Shown piece after piece: positions 19,578-35,614 of a DNA stretch of 64,000 nt. The notes under the pieces were generated by a model that saw nothing but the letters and a program-made list of their open reading frames with translations, was not told the origin of the DNA and searched no databases. Both the position numbers and the translations under genes were made by a program. The stretch comes from Syntrophomonas sp. GTDB taxonomy: Bacteria; Bacillota; Syntrophomonadia; Syntrophomonadales; Syntrophomonadaceae. The DNA lies in contig JAENZE010000013.1 in NCBI GenBank assembly GCA_016841425.1, forward strand, positions 62,001 to 126,000, written 5' to 3'. The stretch's first letter is position 1; each line of letters begins with the position of its first letter.

Positions 19578-20153
19578 TTAACTGCGGCTGCCGGGTTTAT
19601 AAGCCTCAGATTGACCTTCCTTACACAGCGGGCATTCTGTCTGTTCCCATGATTGAATATCCATGGACAGAACCGCCTCTTGTTTAACCCCAAAAGACAC
19701 ACTTCCATTGCTGCGGTCTACCAGCACTGCTACCCCGGCTACCTCTCCGCCAGCTGCTTTAACTGCGTCCATGACTTCTTTTACTGATCCTCCGGTAGTC
19801 ACCACGTCTTCAACTACCAGAACTTTTTGTCCCGGGTCTATGGTAAATCCACGTCTAATTTCCATTTTACCATCTTTTCTTTCGGCAAATATTCCCGGCA
19901 CCCCAAGTTGACGCGCTACTTCATAAGATACAATAATTCCACCCATGGCCGGTCCTACTACCAGTTCGATCCCGTCGTTTTCAAATTTATCAGCAATATG
20001 TCGGGCCAACTGCTCTGTATAGGTCGGATACTGCAGTACCTGGGCACACTGCATATATTGATTACTGTGCCGTCCAGATGTCAACAGGAAATGTCCCTCC
20101 ATCAAAGCTCCAGAAACACTGAATATTTTTACTGCTTCTTCCCTGCTCAACAT
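19578..20153 (-). CDS. pyrE: Orotate phosphoribosyltransferase
   Basis: 191 aa. Joins orotate and PRPP to give OMP, the fifth step of UMP synthesis. The PRPP motif VLVVEDVVTTGGSVKEVMDA and the catalytic loop residues around AERKDGKMEIRRGF are present. ATG follows GGAGGAATAGATA. It begins 3 bp after pyrF, implying translational coupling. The C-terminus carries CPLCKEGQSEAYKPGS, a Cys pair seen in some clostridial PyrE proteins. Confidence 0.96.
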   Translation of the reverse strand: MLSREEAVKIFSVSGALMEGHFLLTSGRHSNQYMQCAQVLQYPTYTEQLARHIADKFENDGIELVVGPAMGGIIVSYEVARQLGVPGIFAERKDGKMEIRRGFTIDPGQKVLVVEDVVTTGGSVKEVMDAVKAAGGEVAGVAVLVDRSNGSVSFGVKQEAVLSMDIQSWEQTECPLCKEGQSEAYKPGSRS

Positions 20154-20156
20154 TAT

Positions 20157-20876
20157 CTATTCCTCCAATTCATTAATTATTTTCAAAGCAGCTTCAACCG
20201 GGCTGCCGGCTTTTACTATCGGTCGGCCGATCACCATATAATCAGCCCCCATATCCAGGGCCTGCCTGGGGGTAGTAATCCGTTTCTGGTCGTTAGCTTC
20301 TGACCAGGCCGGTCTTATCCCTGGTGTAACTATCTTGAAATCAGGCCCGCACGCCTGTCTAATAGCTCCTATCTCCTGAGGTGAACAAACTACCCCTTTT
20401 ATTCCGCATTCCTGTGCCATGATAGCCCATCTGACAACCAGGTCTTCAATCTGCATATCCTTAACATACATCTCCTGTTTCAGCTGTTCTTGATTAATAC
20501 TAGTCAGCACAGTTACTGCCAAAGTGATAGGCTCCGGCCGCTCCAGACGTTTAGATTCCTGCTTGAGTTCATCGGCCAGTGCCTGCATCATTTCCCGACC
20601 TCCCGCTGCATGCACGTTAAACATATGGCATCCCAGCCGAGCCATAACTCGACCTGCAGCGGCCACGGTATTGGGTATATCATGAAATTTTAAATCCACA
20701 AACACCTTTCCGCCCAGTTCATTGATTTCCCTGACTATGTCTGGTCCAACACTATTATATAGCTGCATACCGACCTTAAATACTCCTACATATCCAGCTA
20801 ATTCCCTTACCAGTGAAATCGCCTTTTCTTTGGAATCCACATCCAGTGCTAATACTATTCTATCCTGGGCCTGCAT
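20157..20876 (-). CDS. pyrF: Orotidine 5'-phosphate decarboxylase
   Basis: 239 aa TIM barrel that decarboxylates OMP to UMP. VLALDVDSKEKA opens the protein and VFVDLKFHDIPNTVA carries the catalytic Lys-Asp network. VTPGIRP and DYMVIGRPI form the phosphate-binding region. AAGGAGG precedes the ATG. Part of the contiguous pyr operon. Confidence 0.97.
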   Translation of the reverse strand: MQAQDRIVLALDVDSKEKAISLVRELAGYVGVFKVGMQLYNSVGPDIVREINELGGKVFVDLKFHDIPNTVAAAGRVMARLGCHMFNVHAAGGREMMQALADELKQESKRLERPEPITLAVTVLTSINQEQLKQEMYVKDMQIEDLVVRWAIMAQECGIKGVVCSPQEIGAIRQACGPDFKIVTPGIRPAWSEANDQKRITTPRQALDMGADYMVIGRPIVKAGSPVEAALKIINELEE

Positions 20877-20937: not shown

Positions 20938-21873
20938 TTATAATACGGCTGCACCCACCAGTTCATTTATTCCTGTTAGTCCCTGCTCCGTTACATATTT
21001 CTCCAATCCCAGGGCAATCTCCTCTGCCACGACGGGATTAACAAAATTGCCGGTGCCAATAGACACTGCACTGGCTCCTGCCATAATAAATTCCAGGGCA
21101 TCCCGGGTATTAAGAATTCCTCCTCCACCCAGTATGGGAAGATCTACTTCTTTATACACCTGGTAAATCATGCGCAGAGCAACCGGTTTTATAGCCGGGC
21201 CCGACAGACCTCCAAATATATTGCCCAAAACCGGCTTTCTTCTATCAATGTCAACAGCCATACCCATTAAGGTATTTATCATAGATAGAGCATCGGCTCC
21301 TCCATCCCTGGCTGCTCTTGCAATGCTTACAATGTCAGTTACATTAGGTGATAGCTTAGGTATTACCGGCAGACTGGTTTCCGATTTTACAGCCTCAACC
21401 ACCTGTTTTACCAGATCCGGGTCAGTTCCGAACTGCATTCCACCCTGTTTCACATTGGGACAGGAAATGTTCAATTCTATACCAGCAATACCTGGGTGTT
21501 TATCGATTTTCCTGCTCAGCAGAGCATACTCATCCACCGTGTTTCCAGCAATATTAGCTATTACAGTCACTCTATCTTCTATCAGTGAAGGCAGATAAAC
21601 GTTTAGAAATACATCTATGCCGGGATTCTCCAGACCGATGGCGTTAAGCATGCCGGCTGGTGTTTCATAGATTCTGGGAGCTGGATTACCGCAACGCTCT
21701 TCCAGGGTAGTTCCCTTTACTATAACCGCTCCAATTCTCGAAATATCTATAAAATCCTGATACTCACGCCCATATCCAAAAGTTCCAGATGCTACTGCAA
21801 CCGGGTTCTGCATCTTCAGGCCACCTAGATTTACAGACATGTCGATCAGGTTCTCCCTGGTTTCCTCATTCAA
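20938..21873 (-). CDS. pyrD: Dihydroorotate dehydrogenase B, catalytic subunit
   Basis: 311 aa class 1B FMN enzyme oxidising dihydroorotate to orotate. [14 protein letters not shown] contains the catalytic cysteine of class 1 enzymes, and [15 protein letters not shown] and [16 protein letters not shown] are FMN-site blocks. It starts with TTG eight to nine bases after AGGAGG. Its partner PyrK, which passes electrons to NAD, is encoded immediately upstream. Confidence 0.96.
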
Positions 21874-22011: not shown

Positions 22012-22806
22012 TCATGATCCCCCAGTTGATAATTGGACAGCATCCAGGGGGAATACGGGTCCATCTTTACATATTTTAACGTAGGCAGTATCGGTTTCTT
22101 TCAATTTTCGGGCGCATCCCAAGCAGGCTCCTACTCCGCAGGCCATATGTTCTTCCAGTGATAATTGTCCGGATATGCCGTGCTGTGATGCATAAGCGGC
22201 TACTGCTGACATCATAGGCTCCGGACCACAGGTATATATATAGTCTGTAGGGAGTGGTTCCAAAGCTTCTTTCATCATATCGGTTAGCAATCCTTTATAA
22301 CCAGAGCTTCCATCCATGGTGGCAACTTTATATTCCACTCCCAGTTTGCTGAACCTTCCCTGGGAACAAAGTTCATCACTGCTTCCAGTTCCATGAAGCA
22401 CAATAACCTCGTTATGCCGTGCCACTAGCTCACGGGTAAGGAAAAGCAGCGGTGCAATTCCTACCCCTCCTCCTATTAGGATAACTCTCCGGTTCTGGAC
22501 CAGGTCGAATCCCAGACCCAGAGGCCCCATGACATCAATAAGCTGCCCAGATCCATATCTGCTTAAAAGCTGAGTACCCCGACCTACTATTTTATATAAC
22601 AGGGTTATTCGTCCCGCATCCGGCTCTACATCGTAAAGGCTTAAGGGGCGTCGCAGTAAGGGATCGCTGTAATCTCCCAGCCTGACGTTCACAAACTGTC
22701 CTGGTTTAGATTCAGCGGCAATCCCCGGAGCTAGAAATTCCATTTCCCACAGGTCTCTGCCTGTTTGATGGTTGCTAATAACTGTTCCTTTTTCAGCTAA
22801 AGGCAT
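22012..22806 (-). CDS. pyrK: Dihydroorotate dehydrogenase B, electron-transfer subunit
   Basis: 264 aa FAD/[2Fe-2S] subunit. LLRRPLSLYDVE is the FAD motif, LIGGGVGIAPLLFL the NAD motif, and ACGVGACLGCARK with a later cysteine forms the iron-sulfur site. It couples PyrD to NAD+ reduction. ATG follows GGAGGTAGCAGG. It lies 138 bp upstream of pyrD, the widest gap inside the operon. That gap holds no recognisable gene. Confidence 0.96.
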   Translation of the reverse strand: MPLAEKGTVISNHQTGRDLWEMEFLAPGIAAESKPGQFVNVRLGDYSDPLLRRPLSLYDVEPDAGRITLLYKIVGRGTQLLSRYGSGQLIDVMGPLGLGFDLVQNRRVILIGGGVGIAPLLFLTRELVARHNEVIVLHGTGSSDELCSQGRFSKLGVEYKVATMDGSSGYKGLLTDMMKEALEPLPTDYIYTCGPEPMMSAVAAYASQHGISGQLSLEEHMACGVGACLGCARKLKETDTAYVKICKDGPVFPLDAVQLSTGGS

Positions 22807-22856: not shown

Positions 22857-25800
22857 CTATTTATGCATTGCAGCTAGATATTCCTGCAAGGGCCTTATCT
22901 GCGCATTTTCACTGCCGATTCTGCTCCCGGTCTGCAATACCTCCATCACCACTTTAAGGGTATCCAATGAGGTAAGACAGGGCACGTTTAGTTCAACAGC
23001 AGCCCGCCGTATCTGAAAACCATCGCTGTATGGCTTTTTGCCATGAGTCAGGGTGTTGACAATGAAATCAACCCGACCTTCCCGAATAAGATCGACAATA
23101 TTGGGTGAACCTTCCTTTATCTTTTTAACCGTTTCGACTTTAATTCCTTGTTCTCTTAAGGCCCTGGCTGTACCCTCGGTGGCGGTTATCTTAAATCCCA
23201 TCCTGGCAAATTCGGACAGGAGAGGAATGGCTTCTTTCTTATCTCGCTCTGCGATAGTTGCTACTATATTTCCCTCTTCTGGTATTTCTACCCCGGCTGA
23301 TATCAAACCTTTATATATGGCACTCTGCAGCGAGTAATCAATACCCATCACTTCACCGGTGGATTTCATCTCCGGACCTAAAGTGATATCTACCTGATGG
23401 AGTTTATTGAAGGAAAATACCGGGACCTTAACTGCGTAGAATCCCATTTCTGGATATAACCCACCCTGGTGACCCATATCTCTCAAGGTTTTTCCGAACA
23501 TTATCTCGGTGGCTAATTTCACCATAGGTATCCCAGTAGTTTTGCTGATAAACGGTATGGTCCGGCTGGATCTGGGATTTACCTCGAGCACATAGAGTTC
23601 ACCTGCATGTTCTACGAACTGTATGTTTATCAACCCTCGCACATCAAGTTCCAAAGCCAATCGAGTGGTGTAATCTACTACTTTATCCCTGATCTCGGGA
23701 CATATATCATGGGCAGGAAATACCGCAGTGCTGTCACCAGAATGTACCCCGGCCCGTTCGATATGCTGCATAATACCAGGTATCAGGACTTCCTGGCCAT
23801 CACAGACGGCATCTACTTCTATCTCTTTGCCCATCAAGTACTTGTCAACCAGAACCGGATGCTCTTTATTTACCCGGGCCGCTGTTTCCATATACTGTTT
23901 CATCTCATCAATGTTGTCTACTATTTCCATGGCTCTGCCGCCCAGCACGTAGGAAGGCCTTACCAGCACCGGATAGCCAATAGTTTCTGCTGCTTTAATG
24001 GCTTCCTCCACCGAGTACACGCTTTTTCCCGGCGGTCGAGGTATTCCTAAATTTTCAACCATGGCATCAAATCGTTCCCGGTCTTCCGCCCGGTCGATGC
24101 TCTCGTTGGAGGTACCCAAAATCCTTATGCCTGCCCGAGATAAAGGGCCGGCCAGATTAATTGCAGTCTGTCCTCCAAACTGTACAATGACTCCTTCCGG
24201 ATTCTCCTCCTCCAGTATATTCATAACATCCTCAAATACCAGCGGTTCAAAATATAAGCGATCGGAAGTATCAAAATCAGTACTAACCGTTTCCGGATTG
24301 TTATTAACTATTATGGCTTTGATTCCTGCGTCTCGCAAAGCCCATACGGCATGCACCGAACAGTAATCGAACTCGACCCCCTGCCCGATGCGGATCGGCC
24401 CCGAGCCAATAACCAGCACTTTTCGTTGGTTCGGCTCATGGGTTGCTTCATTCTCCTGCTCGTAACAGGAATAAAAGTAAGGGGTTTGAGCATCAAATTC
24501 AGCGGCACAAGTATCTACCTGTTTATAGGTTGGTATTATACCCTTCTCCCGCCGAAATCTGCGCACATCTTCTTCCTGGATACCTTTTATAGTGGCTATC
24601 TCGCTATCGGAAAAGCCCATTTTCTTGGCTGCAGTCAGGGTTTCTCCATCCAGGGCTTTGTCCTTTAGAGCAAGTGCAAAATCAATAATATTTTTCAACT
24701 TTTTTAAAAAGTATTTATCTATCTGGGTGATATCCCATATTTCCTCTATGGTAAATCCGCGGGTAAATGCCTCAGCTATAATAAATATCCTCTCATCATC
24801 TGCATACTGCAAACGGGTTCTTAATCCCTCATCACTTACTTCCTGCAGTTCAGGTAAAAGCAGTCCATTAAGACCTATTTCCAGAGAACGTATGGATTTT
24901 AAAAAGGCTGCTTCAAAACTGCGGTCAATGGCCATTACTTCTCCAGTAGCCTTCATCTGAGTCCCCAGTTTACGATCCCCAAAAACGAATTTATCGAAAG
25001 GCCAACGCGGTACCTTTAACACTACATAGTCAATAGCCGGTTCAAAACAGGCAGTAGTAGTACCGGTAACAGTATTAGGTATTTCATCCAGGTAATATCC
25101 GATAGCTATTTTGGTAGTTACCCGGGCTATAGGATAGCCGGTAGCTTTCGAAGCCAGAGCACTGGAACGGCTGACCCGGGGGTTGACCTCAATAACATAA
25201 TACTTTTTGCTAAACGGGTCCAAGGCGAATTGTATATTGCAGCCTCCTGCTATTTTTAGGGCTCTAATTATCTTAATCGAAGCTGACCTCAGCATCTGGT
25301 ATTCTTCATCAGTTAAGGTTTGAGCTGGTGCAGCTACTATACTGTCGCCGGTATGGATACCTACCGGGTCCAAATTTTCCATAGAACAGATGGTAATGCA
25401 GTTATCATTGGCATCCCGCATTACTTCAAACTCAATCTCCTTATATCCGGCCACGCTTCTTTCAATAAGAGCCTGATGGATGGGACTGCTCTTTAATCCC
25501 CGATTGACGATGTTCAACAGTTCTTCTTCATCGGTGCAGTTGCCGCCGCCCGTTCCACCCAGGGTATAAGCGGGACGTACAATAAGCGGATATCCTATCT
25601 GATTGGCGAAATCAATAGCTTCCTGTACTGAATGCACTATAACGCTTTCCGGTATCGGTTCATTTATTTCCTGCATAGTATCCTTGAACATCTCCCTATC
25701 TTCAGCTCGATAGATAGCATCCAGAGGCATGCCTAATACCGGTACTCCCTTTTCATCCAGAATCCCAGCTTTATCCAGTGCCAGGGCCATATTGAGTCCT

Positions 25801-26081
25801 ATTTGTCCCCCGAGATTGGCAATGATCCCATCCGGTTTTTCTTTGTCCAGAATTTTAACCACGCTTTCGATGGTTATGGGCTCCATATATACCGAATCGG
25901 CAATATCAACATCGGTCATAATCGTAGCTGGATTGCTGTTTAGGAGAATAACCTTGATTCCTTCTTCTTTGATCGCTCTACAGGCTTGAGTTCCTGCATA
26001 ATCAAATTCCGCTGCCTGTCCGATGATAATTGGACCTGAGCCAATTACCAGTACTTTTTTCAAATCCTTATTCAGGGGCAT
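22857..26081 (-). CDS. carB: Carbamoyl phosphate synthase large subunit
   Basis: About 1074 aa, normal length. Two ATP-grasp halves phosphorylate bicarbonate and carbamate; the C-terminal ~130 residues form the MGS-like allosteric domain. KKVLVIGSGPIIIGQAAEFD and RKVLVIGSGPIRIGQGVEFD open the two halves. The frame extends to 26096, but that ATG overlaps the GGAGGG ribosome site, so ATG at 26081 is used. With an apparently inactive CarA glutaminase (next gene), this subunit may take free ammonia directly, as all CarB proteins can in vitro. Confidence 0.96.
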   Translation of the reverse strand: MPLNKDLKKVLVIGSGPIIIGQAAEFDYAGTQACRAIKEEGIKVILLNSNPATIMTDVDIADSVYMEPITIESVVKILDKEKPDGIIANLGGQIGLNMALALDKAGILDEKGVPVLGMPLDAIYRAEDREMFKDTMQEINEPIPESVIVHSVQEAIDFANQIGYPLIVRPAYTLGGTGGGNCTDEEELLNIVNRGLKSSPIHQALIERSVAGYKEIEFEVMRDANDNCITICSMENLDPVGIHTGDSIVAAPAQTLTDEEYQMLRSASIKIIRALKIAGGCNIQFALDPFSKKYYVIEVNPRVSRSSALASKATGYPIARVTTKIAIGYYLDEIPNTVTGTTTACFEPAIDYVVLKVPRWPFDKFVFGDRKLGTQMKATGEVMAIDRSFEAAFLKSIRSLEIGLNGLLLPELQEVSDEGLRTRLQYADDERIFIIAEAFTRGFTIEEIWDITQIDKYFLKKLKNIIDFALALKDKALDGETLTAAKKMGFSDSEIATIKGIQEEDVRRFRREKGIIPTYKQVDTCAAEFDAQTPYFYSCYEQENEATHEPNQRKVLVIGSGPIRIGQGVEFDYCSVHAVWALRDAGIKAIIVNNNPETVSTDFDTSDRLYFEPLVFEDVMNILEEENPEGVIVQFGGQTAINLAGPLSRAGIRILGTSNESIDRAEDRERFDAMVENLGIPRPPGKSVYSVEEAIKAAETIGYPVLVRPSYVLGGRAMEIVDNIDEMKQYMETAARVNKEHPVLVDKYLMGKEIEVDAVCDGQEVLIPGIMQHIERAGVHSGDSTAVFPAHDICPEIRDKVVDYTTRLALELDVRGLINIQFVEHAGELYVLEVNPRSSRTIPFISKTTGIPMVKLATEIMFGKTLRDMGHQGGLYPEMGFYAVKVPVFSFNKLHQVDITLGPEMKSTGEVMGIDYSLQSAIYKGLISAGVEIPEEGNIVATIAERDKKEAIPLLSEFARMGFKITATEGTARALREQGIKVETVKKIKEGSPNIVDLIREGRVDFIVNTLTHGKKPYSDGFQIRRAAVELNVPCLTSLDTLKVVMEVLQTGSRIGSENAQIRPLQEYLAAMHK

Positions 26082-26119
26082 AAAATTTCCCTCCATTTAT
26101 AGCTGTATTAATCAAGCAA

Positions 26120-27184
26120 TTAGAGCATATTAACAAATTCGTCATAATAAAAACCAGTCTCACTATATCCAGAAAAACCTTCGGGGTCGAACTGGACCGA
26201 AAAAGCTGGATACTCCCGATGCCTGATTCCTTCGATGCTATCATCGTTAAGGCTGCGTAAAGTAACCTCCCAACCATGGTCTGTAAGTGATTTTTCTTCT
26301 ATAGTAAAACCGTGGTTTTGAGTAGTAATATACACCCGGCCATTATGCAAATCCTTAACCGGATGATTGGTCCCCCGATGTCCGTATCTTAGACGGCTGG
26401 TTGCAGCTCCCATAGACAGGGCCAGAATCTGGTGCCCCAGGCCGATACCGAATACCGGTACTCTTCCAACAAGAGCCCGGCACGCATCTATAGCATACTG
26501 AAGAGCCTGGGGATCTCCGGGACCATCAGACAGAAATACCCCATCGGGTCGGAGCTCTATTATCTCTGCAGCAGTAGTAGTGGCTGGAACAGCAATAACC
26601 TGACAACCCCGTTCAGTAAAAGAATCTATAACTCCCTTTTTAGTCCCCAGATCTATCATAACGATGCGTTTTTCTCCTGAGCCAAAACTCATGATATTTT
26701 TGCGGGTGACGAATCTAACCATGTCACCAGTTAAATCCCGCGCTTCTTTCTTAGCCTTTTGTATGAGCCTTTCCAAACTGTTCAGATTATCAGTGATGAC
26801 ACCTCCCATGGTGCCATTACTTCTCAGTTCCCGGGTGAGCGCCCGGGTATCCACCTCGGTCAGCACCGGAATTTCGCTCTTATTCAAGAAGGTAATCAAG
26901 TCCGTTTCCATCTCATAATGACTGGGGAAATCAGTCGCCTCTCTTAAAACCAAACCTTTCACCATGGCAGAACGAGAAGCAAAACTTCTTTCATTGAATC
27001 CTACATTTCCCACCAGCGGGTAGGTCATAACCACAATCTGCCCATAATATGATGGATCAGTGATGATATCCTGGTAACTTATCATAGCAGTACTGAATAC
27101 CACTTCTCCTCCTGCCATACGACAGTCGTTCAGCAGTTTACCAGGGAAAACCCGGCCGTTTTCTAGAACCAGGTAGCCTTTCAT
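26120..27184 (-). CDS. carA: CarA-like small subunit with disrupted glutaminase triad
   Basis: 354 aa from ATG at 27184. It has the N-terminal CarA domain (YLVLENGRVFPGKLL) and a C-terminal class I amidotransferase domain. In active CarA the nucleophile lies in GICLGHQ and the histidine in QFHPE. Here the codons read GIGLGHQ (Gly248, GGC at 26441-26443) and QFDPE (Asp333, GAC at 26186-26188). Only the Glu335 position is kept. The frame is intact and TTQNHGF is conserved, so the protein is maintained, but glutamine hydrolysis should not be possible. Vertebrate CPS I, which also lacks the Cys, uses ammonia. Located between pyrC and carB. Confidence 0.93.
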   Translation of the reverse strand: MKGYLVLENGRVFPGKLLNDCRMAGGEVVFSTAMISYQDIITDPSYYGQIVVMTYPLVGNVGFNERSFASRSAMVKGLVLREATDFPSHYEMETDLITFLNKSEIPVLTEVDTRALTRELRSNGTMGGVITDNLNSLERLIQKAKKEARDLTGDMVRFVTRKNIMSFGSGEKRIVMIDLGTKKGVIDSFTERGCQVIAVPATTTAAEIIELRPDGVFLSDGPGDPQALQYAIDACRALVGRVPVFGIGLGHQILALSMGAATSRLRYGHRGTNHPVKDLHNGRVYITTQNHGFTIEEKSLTDHGWEVTLRSLNDDSIEGIRHREYPAFSVQFDPEGFSGYSETGFYYDEFVNML

Positions 27185-27199
27185 TGTTTTTATCACTCC

Positions 27200-28486
27200 T
27201 TAAACTATGCTGCCCTCACGGGCTACTATTTTCCCTTTTACAATGGTTATTACCGGCCAGCCTTTTAATTCCATACCTTTAAAAGGGGTATTTTTTCCCT
27301 TGGAATAGAAATTCTCCGGATTCACCTTGCGCACTTCTTCTGGGTCGATTATCGTAATATCTGCTGCCTTTCCTATTTCAAGAGTGCCGCGATCAAGACG
27401 CAATACATCAGCTGGCCCGCAGGTGAACAATCTCACCATATCAAATATATCAAGTAATCCCTGGTCTACCAGGCGGTCCATTATGACTGCCACAGCTGTT
27501 TCCAGTCCTGATATACCCATAGCTGCCAGCTGAAATTCACAATCCTTGGCTTCCTGGTGATGAGGGGCATGATCGGTGGCTATGCAGTCCACTGTTCCAT
27601 CCTGCAGTGCTTCGATCAAAGCCTGTATATGTTCGGTAGATCTAAGGGGCGGGTTAACCTTGGTATCAGTATTATAATCACCCAAAATTTCATCACTCAG
27701 AGTAAGGTGATGGGGAGTTACTTCACAGGTAACATTAATACCTTTTTCTCTGGCCATCCTTACCAGTTCAATAGAGCCACGGGTAGAAACATGGCAGAGA
27801 TGAATATGCCCTCCGGTTAATTCGGCCAGTCGTATATCACGTGCCACCATTAATTCTTCTGCAGCGGCAGGTATGCCTCTTAATCCATAGATGGTAGAAT
27901 AATATCCCTCGTGCATTTGTCCGTCATGAGAAAGATCCAGGTCTTCACAATGGGAAAGCACTGGTATACCAAACATTTTAGTATATTCAAGTGCATTACG
28001 CATGACACTGGCTTTCTTAACCGGTTTGCCATCATCAGATATGGCTATGCACCCGGCAGCCAGCAGGTCGGCAACTTCACTCAGTTCTTTTCCTTCCTGC
28101 TTCTTGGTTATGGTGCCGATAGGGAAAACATTAACTACCCCGGCTTTTTCAGCCTTCTCCCTGATAAAACGAACTACCGGAGCACTATCTGCCACTGGAT
28201 CAGTATTGGGCATACAGCAAACAGATGTAAATCCTCCTGCTGCCGCCGCCCGGGTTCCAGTAGCTATGTCTTCTTTATATTCAAAACCTGGTTCTCTTAA
28301 ATGGACATGCATATCAATAAATCCAGGACAGACTATCATATTCGAGGCATCGATTACGTCACCGTCCTCAGGGTCAATATTGATACCAATCTCGATAATG
28401 GAACCATTCTCAATCAGTACATCCATAATATCGTCCAGCTCATTTGCAGGGTCAATAACCCTTCCGCCTTTAACCAGCAATCTCAT
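27200..28486 (-). CDS. pyrC: Dihydroorotase
   Basis: 428 aa, class I (Bacillus-type) amidohydrolase cyclising carbamoyl aspartate. DMHVHLREPGFEYKEDI holds the metal-binding HxH and the substrate-binding Arg. Other metal ligands fall in LSHCEDLDL and LCHVSTRG, and ATDHAPHH holds the catalytic Asp. ATG follows GGGGGGG at good distance and overlaps the pyrB end by 17 bp, consistent with coupling. Confidence 0.97.
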   Translation of the reverse strand: MRLLVKGGRVIDPANELDDIMDVLIENGSIIEIGINIDPEDGDVIDASNMIVCPGFIDMHVHLREPGFEYKEDIATGTRAAAAGGFTSVCCMPNTDPVADSAPVVRFIREKAEKAGVVNVFPIGTITKKQEGKELSEVADLLAAGCIAISDDGKPVKKASVMRNALEYTKMFGIPVLSHCEDLDLSHDGQMHEGYYSTIYGLRGIPAAAEELMVARDIRLAELTGGHIHLCHVSTRGSIELVRMAREKGINVTCEVTPHHLTLSDEILGDYNTDTKVNPPLRSTEHIQALIEALQDGTVDCIATDHAPHHQEAKDCEFQLAAMGISGLETAVAVIMDRLVDQGLLDIFDMVRLFTCGPADVLRLDRGTLEIGKAADITIIDPEEVRKVNPENFYSKGKNTPFKGMELKGWPVITIVKGKIVAREGSIV

Positions 28487-29408
28487 CTTTTGCCCCCCCC
28501 ATCATTAAGAACAGCAGTGCCATCCTTACGGCAACTCCGTTGGTAACCTGTTCATTAATCACCGAACGAGACCCATCAGCAACCTCGCTGGATATTTCCA
28601 CACCCCGGTTCATAGGGCCAGGATGAAGCACCAGTACATCCTCCCTGGCAAGCTTCAAGTGCCGGTTGCTGAGCATATACAAATTCGAATATTCGTCCAA
28701 AGAAGGGAATAAACCAGCCTCTTGCCTCTCCCTCTGAATTCTAAGAACATTTATAACATCAACATCTTCTAATGCCTGGTCCAGATTATAATAGGCTTTG
28801 GCTCCCATCTTTTCAATTTCTGGCGGCATTAAGGTAGAAGGTCCAACCACTCTTACTTCACAGCCAAACTTGGTTAAACCGTATATGTTGGAACGAGCAA
28901 CCCGGCTGTGCAAAATATCTCCTACAATTGCTACTTTTAACCCTTCCAGGGTTCCCTTGCTCTCCCTTATACTGTACATATCCAACAAGGCCTGGGTGGG
29001 ATGTTCATGTTCCCCGTCACCAGCGTTGATTACTTTCATACTCGTGTTGCGGGCTGCGTAATGAGCAGTCCCACTCATGGCATGCCTCATCACCATAAGA
29101 TCAAATCCCATCACTTCGATGGTCTTTAAAGTATCACGCAGACTTTCTCCCTTCTGTACACTGCTGGTGGATACAGCCAGGTTAACCGTGTCAGCACTTA
29201 AGTATTTCCCGGCAATTTCGAAAGACGTCCGGGTGCGGGTGCTGTTCTCATAAAAAATGGTCACCATAGCCTTGCCTCTTAATGTGGGGACCTTCTTAAT
29301 ATCCCTCTTTATAATGTCCTTCATCGGTACAGCTGTGTCTAAAATTAATTCGATTTCTTCCCTGCTGAGATCCTTGATCCCCAGCAGATCTTTTCGGTCG
29401 AATTTCAC
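28470..29408 (-). CDS. pyrB: Aspartate carbamoyltransferase, catalytic chain
   Basis: 312 aa. Transfers carbamoyl phosphate to aspartate. The carbamoyl-phosphate motif FYENSTRTRTSFE is intact, and HPTQALLDMYSI and VLHPGPMNRGVE are the expected active-site blocks. TTG at 29414 is too close to the GGAGG, so GTG at 29408, seven bases away, is the better start. No pyrI regulatory chain is present, as in Bacillus. Expression is probably controlled by the PyrR attenuator directly upstream. Confidence 0.96.
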   Translation of the reverse strand: MKFDRKDLLGIKDLSREEIELILDTAVPMKDIIKRDIKKVPTLRGKAMVTIFYENSTRTRTSFEIAGKYLSADTVNLAVSTSSVQKGESLRDTLKTIEVMGFDLMVMRHAMSGTAHYAARNTSMKVINAGDGEHEHPTQALLDMYSIRESKGTLEGLKVAIVGDILHSRVARSNIYGLTKFGCEVRVVGPSTLMPPEIEKMGAKAYYNLDQALEDVDVINVLRIQRERQEAGLFPSLDEYSNLYMLSNRHLKLAREDVLVLHPGPMNRGVEISSEVADGSRSVINEQVTNGVAVRMALLFLMMGGAKDEIAG

Positions 29409-29492
29409 CGCCAAGCCTCCTTTGTCTTTTTTCGCGGCAGAATATCCACCACGCTGCCCACTCCAAATGTCTTAACAACAAGGGCAGGTCGT

Positions 29493-29580
29493 AAAAAAAC
29501 CTTCCCTGCCCACAGGCGGCAAGGAAGGTATTACTAACGCTGCTTCCCCTTGCCAGCCTCACGGGACTGAGTTAAAGGGT
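29493..29580 (-). promoter_or_regulatory. PyrR-dependent attenuator between pyrR and pyrB
   Basis: On the minus strand the PyrR-binding loop (29548-29580) contains TTTAACTCAGTCCCGTGAGG followed by CTGGCAAGG, which is close to the known anti-antiterminator consensus. A terminator hairpin (29499-29529, ACCTTCC...GGAAGGT) and seven T residues follow. When UMP or UTP is bound, PyrR would favour termination before pyrB. Confidence 0.92.
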
Positions 29581-29586
29581 CTTTTG

Positions 29587-30156
<570 letters not shown>

Positions 30157-33206: not shown

Positions 33207-34250
33207 TTACATTCTATTAAAGTAAGCTATTATTCTTTCTTTCTCTATATAGGCAACCCCGCCGGCAGTTGCCAGCCAGTAATTGCTATTTCTATCCTGC
33301 ATTACTTTCATGACTTCATTATGCGGCAGTCCCTCGGACATAGTTAAAAGTATGGACTTCCCATCCTTAATCAAAGAAATGCCCTGAAACTCATAGCCTA
33401 TCCACATAATTCCTGAATCATCCTGGAATATGGAACGTATTTTACCGTCCAATACTCCATCGGCACTACCCAGAGTCTTCTTGGGGACCCATCGATCATT
33501 ATTAATGCTTAAGCAACATAGACCTCCCTTATCGTAAAAACCGGTTGCTACTAGAATCTCTGAATCAGATATGGAATAGATGTCATTAATACTATTATGC
33601 GGCAGACCATTGTTAATGTCATAATAGTCCCACCTGCCATTATGGAAATAAGACAAGCCACCCTGCGGTGAAACGGCAGAACCGAACCATATTCCCCCTC
33701 CTTTATCAGCATAAATTTCACTCACCATATCCACCATTAAACCTTTATCCTGATTGATAACTTCCCCTATCTTATCTTCAATAGAAACCGCACCATTCCA
33801 GGTCCCCACCCATATAGATCCCTCTACAGTACAGCTGAGAGAATTCACTCGGTTATCCGGCAATCCCTTTTGTTCATTAATTAATTGTGATTTCCCGGTA
33901 TTGGGATCATATACGCTTATTCCCTGGTTATGACCGATCCATACTTTCCCATCCTCATCCAGCAGAATAGATTTGGCGTAAGAAATACCCTCCAGTTCTT
34001 TTAACAATCCTCGATTTTGAATAGTTGTGGTATTAAAACTGTAAACACCTTCTCGAGCAGAAACATAAAGCGTATCATCATCCAAAGCCATATCAAAAGC
34101 AATGCCTTTATCGCCGAAAGTGATAAATCCTATATTATTCGGTTCTACCTGGCCAGTACTATGTGCCAGCCAGTATATACCCCATGATGCCGACAGCAAT
34201 ACCATTATAGCCAGCAAGATTTTTGCCAGTTTAAGATTCATATATAACAC
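33207..34250 (-). CDS. Membrane-anchored two-component-regulator-type beta-propeller protein
   Basis: 347 aa. One N-terminal membrane anchor (LAKILLAIMVLLSASWGIYW) is followed by repeated blades with the Reg_prop pattern: DGKVWIGHNQGISVYD, EGSIWVGTWNGAVSIED, GGGIWFGSAVSPQGG, SGIMWIGYEFQGISLI and NSNYWLATAGGVAYIE. The pattern recurs about every 45-50 residues. Unlike typical sensors of this family there is no kinase or GGDEF output domain, so it ends as a bare extracytoplasmic propeller. The start may be GTG 34250 or ATG 34241. It lies 14 bp after the polytopic membrane protein upstream and is probably its partner. Confidence 0.82.
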   Translation of the reverse strand: MLYMNLKLAKILLAIMVLLSASWGIYWLAHSTGQVEPNNIGFITFGDKGIAFDMALDDDTLYVSAREGVYSFNTTTIQNRGLLKELEGISYAKSILLDEDGKVWIGHNQGISVYDPNTGKSQLINEQKGLPDNRVNSLSCTVEGSIWVGTWNGAVSIEDKIGEVINQDKGLMVDMVSEIYADKGGGIWFGSAVSPQGGLSYFHNGRWDYYDINNGLPHNSINDIYSISDSEILVATGFYDKGGLCCLSINNDRWVPKKTLGSADGVLDGKIRSIFQDDSGIMWIGYEFQGISLIKDGKSILLTMSEGLPHNEVMKVMQDRNSNYWLATAGGVAYIEKERIIAYFNRM

Positions 34251-34264
34251 ACCAGTTTATCATT

Positions 34265-35614
34265 TTATTGCTGCTCATCATCCTCATCATCATCCGGCCT
34301 GGGAATCGGGTCTACATATACCCCGTCTATTCCGCTATTATTCCCCCAATCCCCACCGGGACTGGAACTGCTGTCACCCGAACCTGCTCCCGTATCACCA
34401 CCAGATTCATAATCCCCGCTCAGTGCCCCGGATAGACCCTTACCGATTGAGTCCCCTATATTACCAAAGGCAGACATCATAGTTCCAACCTGAATCAGCA
34501 CCTTTCCAACTGCACACAGGGATGCTATAGCCAGCCCTTTATCAAAGCCGGTTAACGGCATGCCGGTAATAAGATCACGGCCGGCAGCTAGGTCGGCCAT
34601 ACCTTTTATAGCTCCTATCATCGGAATTGCACTAAATGCTAAAGAAACATAACAGAGGGCAGCCACTGCCAGAGCAGCCAGCAATACCCGCATTGCCCCA
34701 TCTGATCTAAGCCAGTCCCAGAAGTTCGCTCCACCTTCAATCCAACCACCATCATGTGCAAAAGCAATACCTGATAAATTCAAAAACACAAACACGGTTA
34801 AGCAAAAACAGAACAAGCCCATATGTGCAGGAACCTTTTTTCCGAATAATCCAGGCAGCAATTTTAAAACGGTCAGTACAATCAGAACCAGGGTTGGCAT
34901 AAAATACAGGTAACCATGCGGAATTATAAGGCCTACCATCATGACTATCAGCAAACCTAAAGCTGTTCCCCGCAGTAAAGCAGCCAGCAAATCAATATAG
35001 AATATTCTGATACCCCGCATATGGAATAGTAACAACATATCATGCCAGATAACAAATAAAACATTGAGCAATAAGCTCTTTTCCCGGGCTGCTGCTAATA
35101 GATAGATTATCATACCTAATAACAGTATAAAAACCGGGTTCTGGACCAGCCCCCCTATCGCCGCTCCCAGAACAGCACCCAACAGCAGCATGGTGCTTGC
35201 TGGACCATATCTTAAATCATCAATGTATTGAGACAAGTTCCAAAAAACGGACTTGGTAAATGCACTTATTCCCATACTGGAGATTTTGCTGAAGCCGCGA
35301 GCGAGCAGCAGGAAAAACAATGGCAGCACCAGAAAAGCCGCCCTGCTTCGCATTATATAAACCCAATATACATTTTCACTGCCTTCCAGACTGACTATAT
35401 ATCTTAACAGCCATCCGGCTGTGAACAGTCCATCATTATGTTCCCAAAGCCCCTCATTGACATATGCAATCAAAAAAGCATACAGAGCCAAGGCGCCGGC
35501 TGACAAGAGAAATGATATTATGAGTCGCAGCGGCAGTTTTTCCCTAAACTTAGTACGATATTCTCTGGCAAATGCTCTTATTGCCGATTCTTTTCCTAAA
35601 ACAAAGGTTTCCAT
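34265..35614 (-). CDS. Unrecognised polytopic membrane protein with acidic tail
   Basis: 449 aa, not recognised. About ten to eleven membrane spans cover residues ~28-395, then a low-complexity, Gly/Ser-rich tail ends in DPIPRPDDDEDDEQQ. A soluble N-terminal basic segment precedes the first span. AGAGGAGG precedes the ATG. It is followed closely by the beta-propeller protein, so the two may form one membrane complex. No transporter or enzyme motif is evident. An ordinary permease is possible but unsupported. Confidence 0.7.
   Translation of the reverse strand: METFVLGKESAIRAFAREYRTKFREKLPLRLIISFLLSAGALALYAFLIAYVNEGLWEHNDGLFTAGWLLRYIVSLEGSENVYWVYIMRSRAAFLVLPLFFLLLARGFSKISSMGISAFTKSVFWNLSQYIDDLRYGPASTMLLLGAVLGAAIGGLVQNPVFILLLGMIIYLLAAAREKSLLLNVLFVIWHDMLLLFHMRGIRIFYIDLLAALLRGTALGLLIVMMVGLIIPHGYLYFMPTLVLIVLTVLKLLPGLFGKKVPAHMGLFCFCLTVFVFLNLSGIAFAHDGGWIEGGANFWDWLRSDGAMRVLLAALAVAALCYVSLAFSAIPMIGAIKGMADLAAGRDLITGMPLTGFDKGLAIASLCAVGKVLIQVGTMMSAFGNIGDSIGKGLSGALSGDYESGGDTGAGSGDSSSSPGGDWGNNSGIDGVYVDPIPRPDDDEDDEQQ

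Follow-up and report, generated by a model that had tools for sequence, protein, structure and literature searches.

The carA gene of the pyrimidine operon in the window, the whole 64,000-nucleotide stretch of Syntrophomonas sp. DNA analyzed in this study, encodes a small subunit of carbamoyl phosphate synthetase (CPS), here designated CarA*, in which Gly248 and Asp333 replace the catalytic Cys and His of the glutaminase site. Comparative sequence analysis indicated that CarA* and the large subunit encoded next to it, CarB, very probably form an ammonia-dependent bacterial CPS. The original prediction had read the gene in the same way, and this reading is supported by the family-wide occurrence of the Gly/Asp form, by purifying selection, and by genomes in which no other CarA is present.

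CarA* and its pyrimidine operon

Translation of the carA* frame gave an uninterrupted protein of 354 amino acids with the motifs GIGLGHQ and QFDPE. Both the translation and an alignment with E. coli CarA from NC_000913 (L241), which was used as the numbering reference, agreed with the motifs and with the numbering of Gly248, Asp333 and Glu335 given in the original prediction. Neither the catalytic Cys (GxCLGHQ) nor the catalytic His (QFHPE) of a CPS II small subunit is present in CarA*. The surroundings of the active site are also altered, with Asn240, Ser357 and Pro360 of E. coli corresponding to Asp220, Phe337 and Tyr340 in the window protein. The features of the gene were as follows.

26120..27184, minus strand: carA*, pseudo-glutaminase CPS small subunit with Gly248/Asp333 in place of the catalytic Cys/His (translation, profiles, alignment, AlphaFold model)
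26441..26443, minus strand: Gly248 codon GGC (E. coli Cys269, the nucleophile); Gly in 34 of 34 clade members
26186..26188, minus strand: Asp333 codon GAC (E. coli His353); 33 of the 34 clade members have Asp and one has Ala
26180..26182, minus strand: Glu335 codon GAA (E. coli Glu355), the third triad residue, retained (alignment)
26525..26527, minus strand: Asp220 codon (E. coli Asn240); Asp in 34 of 34 clade members, Asn in 96 of 96 canonical CarA
26165..26176, minus strand: remodelled loop Phe337-Tyr340 (E. coli Ser357-Pro360, by the ammonia tunnel) (alignment, model)

CarA* scored 406.6 bits against TIGR01368 (cut-off 307) and 408 against NF009475 (cut-off 221), both of which are curated CarA profiles, and both Pfam CarA domains, CPSase_sm_chain and class I GATase, are spanned full length. 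The profile that CarA* passes carries the curated name 'glutamine-hydrolyzing'. The glutamine-pocket residues S47, G241, G243, L270, Q273 and N311 (E. coli numbering) are retained. The position of E. coli Gly293 is occupied by Thr or Ser in CarA*; Ala or Ser is likewise common there in canonical CarA, and CPS1, whose tunnel is blocked at this point, has Gln.

The AlphaFold model of CarA*, computed from the window protein and related sequences, had a mean pLDDT of 89 and matched E. coli CarA (1jdb/1cs0) with TM scores of 0.92-0.94 and the small-subunit part of CPS1 with TM scores of 0.87-0.89. The stretch of lowest confidence comprised residues 338-340, which lie within the altered loop. The structural matches to the model included 1m6v, the structure of the G359F mutant; Gly359 is an ammonia-tunnel residue, adjoined by position 360.

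The frame had been predicted to be intact within a full pyr operon, and this proved correct, with the operon extending from pyrR to pyrE in the order pyrR - PyrR RNA site - pyrB - pyrC - carA - carB - pyrK - pyrD - pyrF - pyrE. The elements other than carA* were as follows.

29587..30141, minus strand: pyrR, regulator, which fits the PyrR site ahead of pyrB
29492..29582, minus strand: PyrR-binding RNA element preceding pyrB (RF00515; 59.9 bits against a gathering score of 54)
28470..29414, minus strand: pyrB, aspartate carbamoyltransferase (matched weakly by the model for the related ornithine carbamoyltransferase)
27200..28486, minus strand: pyrC, dihydroorotase (operon position and sequence reading)
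22857..26096, minus strand: carB, large subunit, with synthetase and ammonia-gate residues intact (profile and residue comparison)
22012..22806, minus strand: pyrK, dihydroorotate dehydrogenase electron-transfer subunit (sequence reading)
20938..21873, minus strand: pyrD, dihydroorotate dehydrogenase (sequence reading)
20157..20876, minus strand: pyrF, orotidine-phosphate decarboxylase (sequence reading)
19578..20153, minus strand: pyrE, orotate phosphoribosyltransferase (sequence reading)

carA* and carB are separate genes and do not encode a single fused chain of the CPS I type. The CarB next to CarA* has all of its catalytic residues and the gate residues Cys232, Ala251 and Ala314; the residues of the ammonia gate have been named previously (PMC4655335). 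Elsewhere in the window, a protein resembling serial two-component-regulator propeller repeats (33207-34250) adjoins a membrane protein (34265-35614).

Conservation of the Gly/Asp form

The family set consisted of 54 genomes assigned to Syntrophomonadaceae by named records, many of them Syntrophomonas, and a CarA above the TIGR01368 cut-off was found in 43 of them. When the residues were read at each locus, the family copies fell into two groups, Gly/Asp copies in the pyr operon and Cys/His copies elsewhere. The pattern QFDPE-x-[YF]-x-G-[YF], which recovers every retrieved Gly/Asp locus, was present in 35 of the 54 family genomes and in none of nine other genomes of the order, and one Gly/Ala copy in a further genome (G021) brings CarA* to 36 of 54. 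The original prediction had suggested looking for a conserved Gly/Asp pair among relatives, and these copies indeed form a single clade in the tree (SH-aLRT 100). All four Gly codons (GGC, GGA, GGG and GGT) are used within the clade, whose genomes were assembled independently. The dN/dS values of CarA* (0.038-0.115) were similar to those of the canonical paralogue (0.050-0.169), so the selection that had been proposed for this gene was also confirmed. A single clade, four Gly codons and low dN/dS together indicate that the Gly/Asp change is old, conserved and selected.

The change of two out of three triad residues might also be expected of a pseudogene or of a sequencing error, but the frame is open, identical residues recur in dozens of independent genomes with four different Gly codons, and dN/dS is near 0.1. 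The shared residues, the codon variety and dN/dS refute this explanation, the probability of which is negligible.

Out of 70 columns that are at least 95% conserved in 96 canonical CarA, the clade has lost only seven (E. coli positions 38, 63, 205, 240, 269, 353 and 360), and four of these (N240, C269, H353 and P360) sit at the glutaminase site or in the tunnel loop. The TrpG/PabA-like and GuaA-like proteins of the window genome keep GIC and QFHPE; because both of these other class I amidotransferases retain Cys and His, the loss of the dyad is specific to CarA, and a genome-wide loss of glutaminase function was ruled out.

CarA* is the only CarA, accompanied by one CarB, in nine good-quality genomes (≥ 90% complete and ≤ 5% contaminated), namely G017, G018, G032, G034, G035, G037, G043, G046 and G050, and no second CarB above the cut-off was found in any of the nine. 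Some of these are draft genomes in which a missing second carA could reflect incompleteness, though G034 and G037 (2,936,195 bases) are single contigs. G037 is, we assume, S. wolfei. The ornithine carbamoyltransferase gene argF was present in all seven of these genomes that were tested, which implies that carbamoyl phosphate is required for arginine as well. S. wolfei grows on nothing but mineral, metal and vitamin solutions supplemented with bicarbonate, cysteine-sulfide and either butyrate or crotonate (PMC5626996), so that, given growth in such a mineral-vitamin medium, CarA*-CarB should work without glutamine hydrolysis.

Cys-to-Gly CarA was also found outside the CarA* clade, as the sole CarA above the cut-off in Pelotomaculum sp. 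UBA5255 (L120) and Oceanobacillus rekensis (L132), and further in G087, G291, G210, G059 and G433. G059 (L276, L279) and G210 (L277, L281), which belong to other families of the phylum, each have two carA genes beside carB, none with the catalytic Cys. The Gly state requires at least six changes on the tree, a number that is approximate because several of the Gly rows are long branches. A search of 398 genomes of the phylum with a Gly-motif pattern mostly matched an unrelated protein, IEGAHEGVGLGHQ, which is probably an Obg-type GTPase; at least five true CarA from outside the family were among the loci retrieved. Further CarA paralogues (L282, L240 and L281) are gapped or altered around QFHPE and may be other dead or repurposed CarA; some paralogues altered in this way adjoin a carbamoyltransferase-like gene (L305, L240).

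Intact CarA and stand-alone CarB in the family

According to the original prediction, a second intact carA paired with this carB would speak against an ammonia-dependent enzyme. A second carA with both Cys and His is indeed present in the window genome (G000:C5:43904-44953), but the pairing was not seen in the gene order: the gene is far from carB, no carB lies alongside, and downstream of it are two small proteins read as GlnK/PII together with two ammonium transporters (amt: TIGR00836). At L066:5800-10853, an intact carA precedes the order PII-amt-PII-amt. In 14 family genomes a PII gene comes after an intact carA, in most cases together with amt. From sequence reading of the glutamate-synthase names, the order gltB-gltD-carA occurs in G024 and G440, and in G044, G151 and G433 the intact carA is part of, or close to, a putative glutamate synthase cluster of archaeal type; runs of gltD-carA-carB-PII-amt were found in G026, G027 and G039. 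Placement of carA among ammonium-uptake or glutamate-synthase genes recurs within the order, and a literature search found no report of a carA-glnK link.

The pyr operons of G003, G022 and G051, and that of G433 from the sister family, contain carB without carA, and in G003, G022 and G433 an intact carA is located elsewhere. In seven good genomes, two CarA are accompanied by a single CarB. Intact carA genes without carB in nitrogen loci, pyr operons without carA, and genomes with two CarA and one CarB led us to propose, tentatively, that a single CarB is shared. The subunits might be exchanged such that CarB is served in an ammonia mode by CarA* from the pyr operon, under PyrR control, or in a glutamine mode by intact CarA from the glnK-amt or glutamate synthase locus when ammonium is scarce. 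Nine good genomes are entirely without intact CarA, which argues against such an exchange, as do an additional carA(Cys)-carB pair in G045 and, in some genomes including that of the window, a second, stand-alone CarB, which might be the partner of intact CarA instead. Subunit exchange extends the explanation by ammonia dependence and does not replace it.

The stand-alone CarB, designated CarB2 (L215:8666-11896; G000:C16:117168-120302), has intact catalytic and gate residues and occurs in about 17 of the 54 family genomes and in most other genomes of the order. CarB2 is present with no CarA above the cut-off in G030 (100% complete) and G025 and in the order genomes G373, G414 and G442, and the pyr operon of G030 has neither carA nor carB. 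CarB2 is a candidate for a CPS without any glutaminase subunit.

Nitrogen donor of CarA*-CarB

CarA* is predicted to retain the CarA fold and to bind CarB, and would be unable to hydrolyze glutamine because the Cys-His dyad is absent. In E. coli CarA, Cys269 and His353 were both reported to be essential to glutamine hydrolysis (PMC6245113), which makes ammonia the likely nitrogen donor for the enzyme with CarA*. The original prediction cited vertebrate CPS I as an ammonia-using enzyme without the Cys, in agreement with human CPS1, which has Ser in place of Cys and uses ammonia (PMC4655335). CarA*-CarB would thus take free ammonia directly from solution, and would supply both pyrimidine and arginine synthesis where no other CarA is present. 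The benefit may lie in the glutamine synthetase ATP saved by energy-starved syntrophs living in ammonia-rich sludge.

Some observations count against this proposal. Ammonia is used by E. coli CPS only when its concentration is very high (PMC6245113), the window genome has an intact CarA elsewhere, and the glutamine pocket is kept, which a pure structural relic would not need. The retained pocket might also indicate that CarA* hydrolyzes glutamine by means of another nucleophile, such as Cys21, which occupies the position of E. coli Thr23 and is present in 34 of 34 clade members and in none of 96 canonical CarA. Cys21 is located in the N-terminal domain, however, and the catalytic His is gone as well; we know of no class I amidotransferase that functions without the elbow Cys, and glutamine hydrolysis by this route is considered highly improbable. 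It is also very unlikely that CarA* is a mere scaffold or inhibitory placeholder, with carbamoyl phosphate made with intact CarA or by another route. An intact CarA accompanies CarA* in 17 of 36 genomes and several genomes have CarB2, as such a role would suggest, but the nine good genomes without intact CarA or a second CarB above the cut-off, and argF in every one of the seven tested, argue against it.

CarA* resembles the small subunit of E. coli-type CPS II (TIGR01368) in its fold, CarB partner, glutamine pocket and Glu355, but it has Gly/Asp, Asp and Tyr in place of Cys269/His353, Asn240 and Pro360, and glutaminase chemistry is not expected of it. As in vertebrate CPS I, the glutaminase-like part would be folded but dead, with the synthetase intact and ammonia as the expected donor. 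CPS1 is a fused chain with Ser for Cys that needs N-acetylglutamate and serves ureagenesis, whereas CarA*-CarB is a heterodimer encoded in a pyrimidine operon, with Gly/Asp and an independent origin. The carbamate-kinase-like route of Pyrococcus likewise supplies carbamoyl phosphate from ammonia in a prokaryote, but through an unrelated enzyme of the amino-acid kinase fold, without CarA or CarB. Bacillus subtilis also has two differently controlled carA genes in one genome (pyrimidine and arginine); these belong to two complete, separately regulated CPS, whereas the second CarA described here mostly lacks an adjoining carB and lies with glnK-amt or glutamate synthase genes.

All CPS apart from vertebrate CPS1 are said to use glutamine (PMC4655335), bacterial CPS is described as glutamine-dependent CPS II (PMC6022934), and a literature search on Syntrophomonas CPS found nothing relevant. 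If the proposal is true, bacteria would have an independently arisen natural equivalent of CPS1 in this conserved, glutaminase-dead CPS, and free ammonia would be shown to sustain a CPS in a free-living cell. A natural Cys-to-Gly enzyme would also be a ready system for the entry of external ammonia into CPS, which is unsettled for CPS1. Ammonia dependence would tie nucleotide synthesis to the tightly limited energy supply on which syntrophs live, and subunit exchange, if it occurs, would make the swap of the small subunit a nitrogen-source switch in Syntrophomonadaceae, with CarB becoming glutamine-dependent when ammonium is low.
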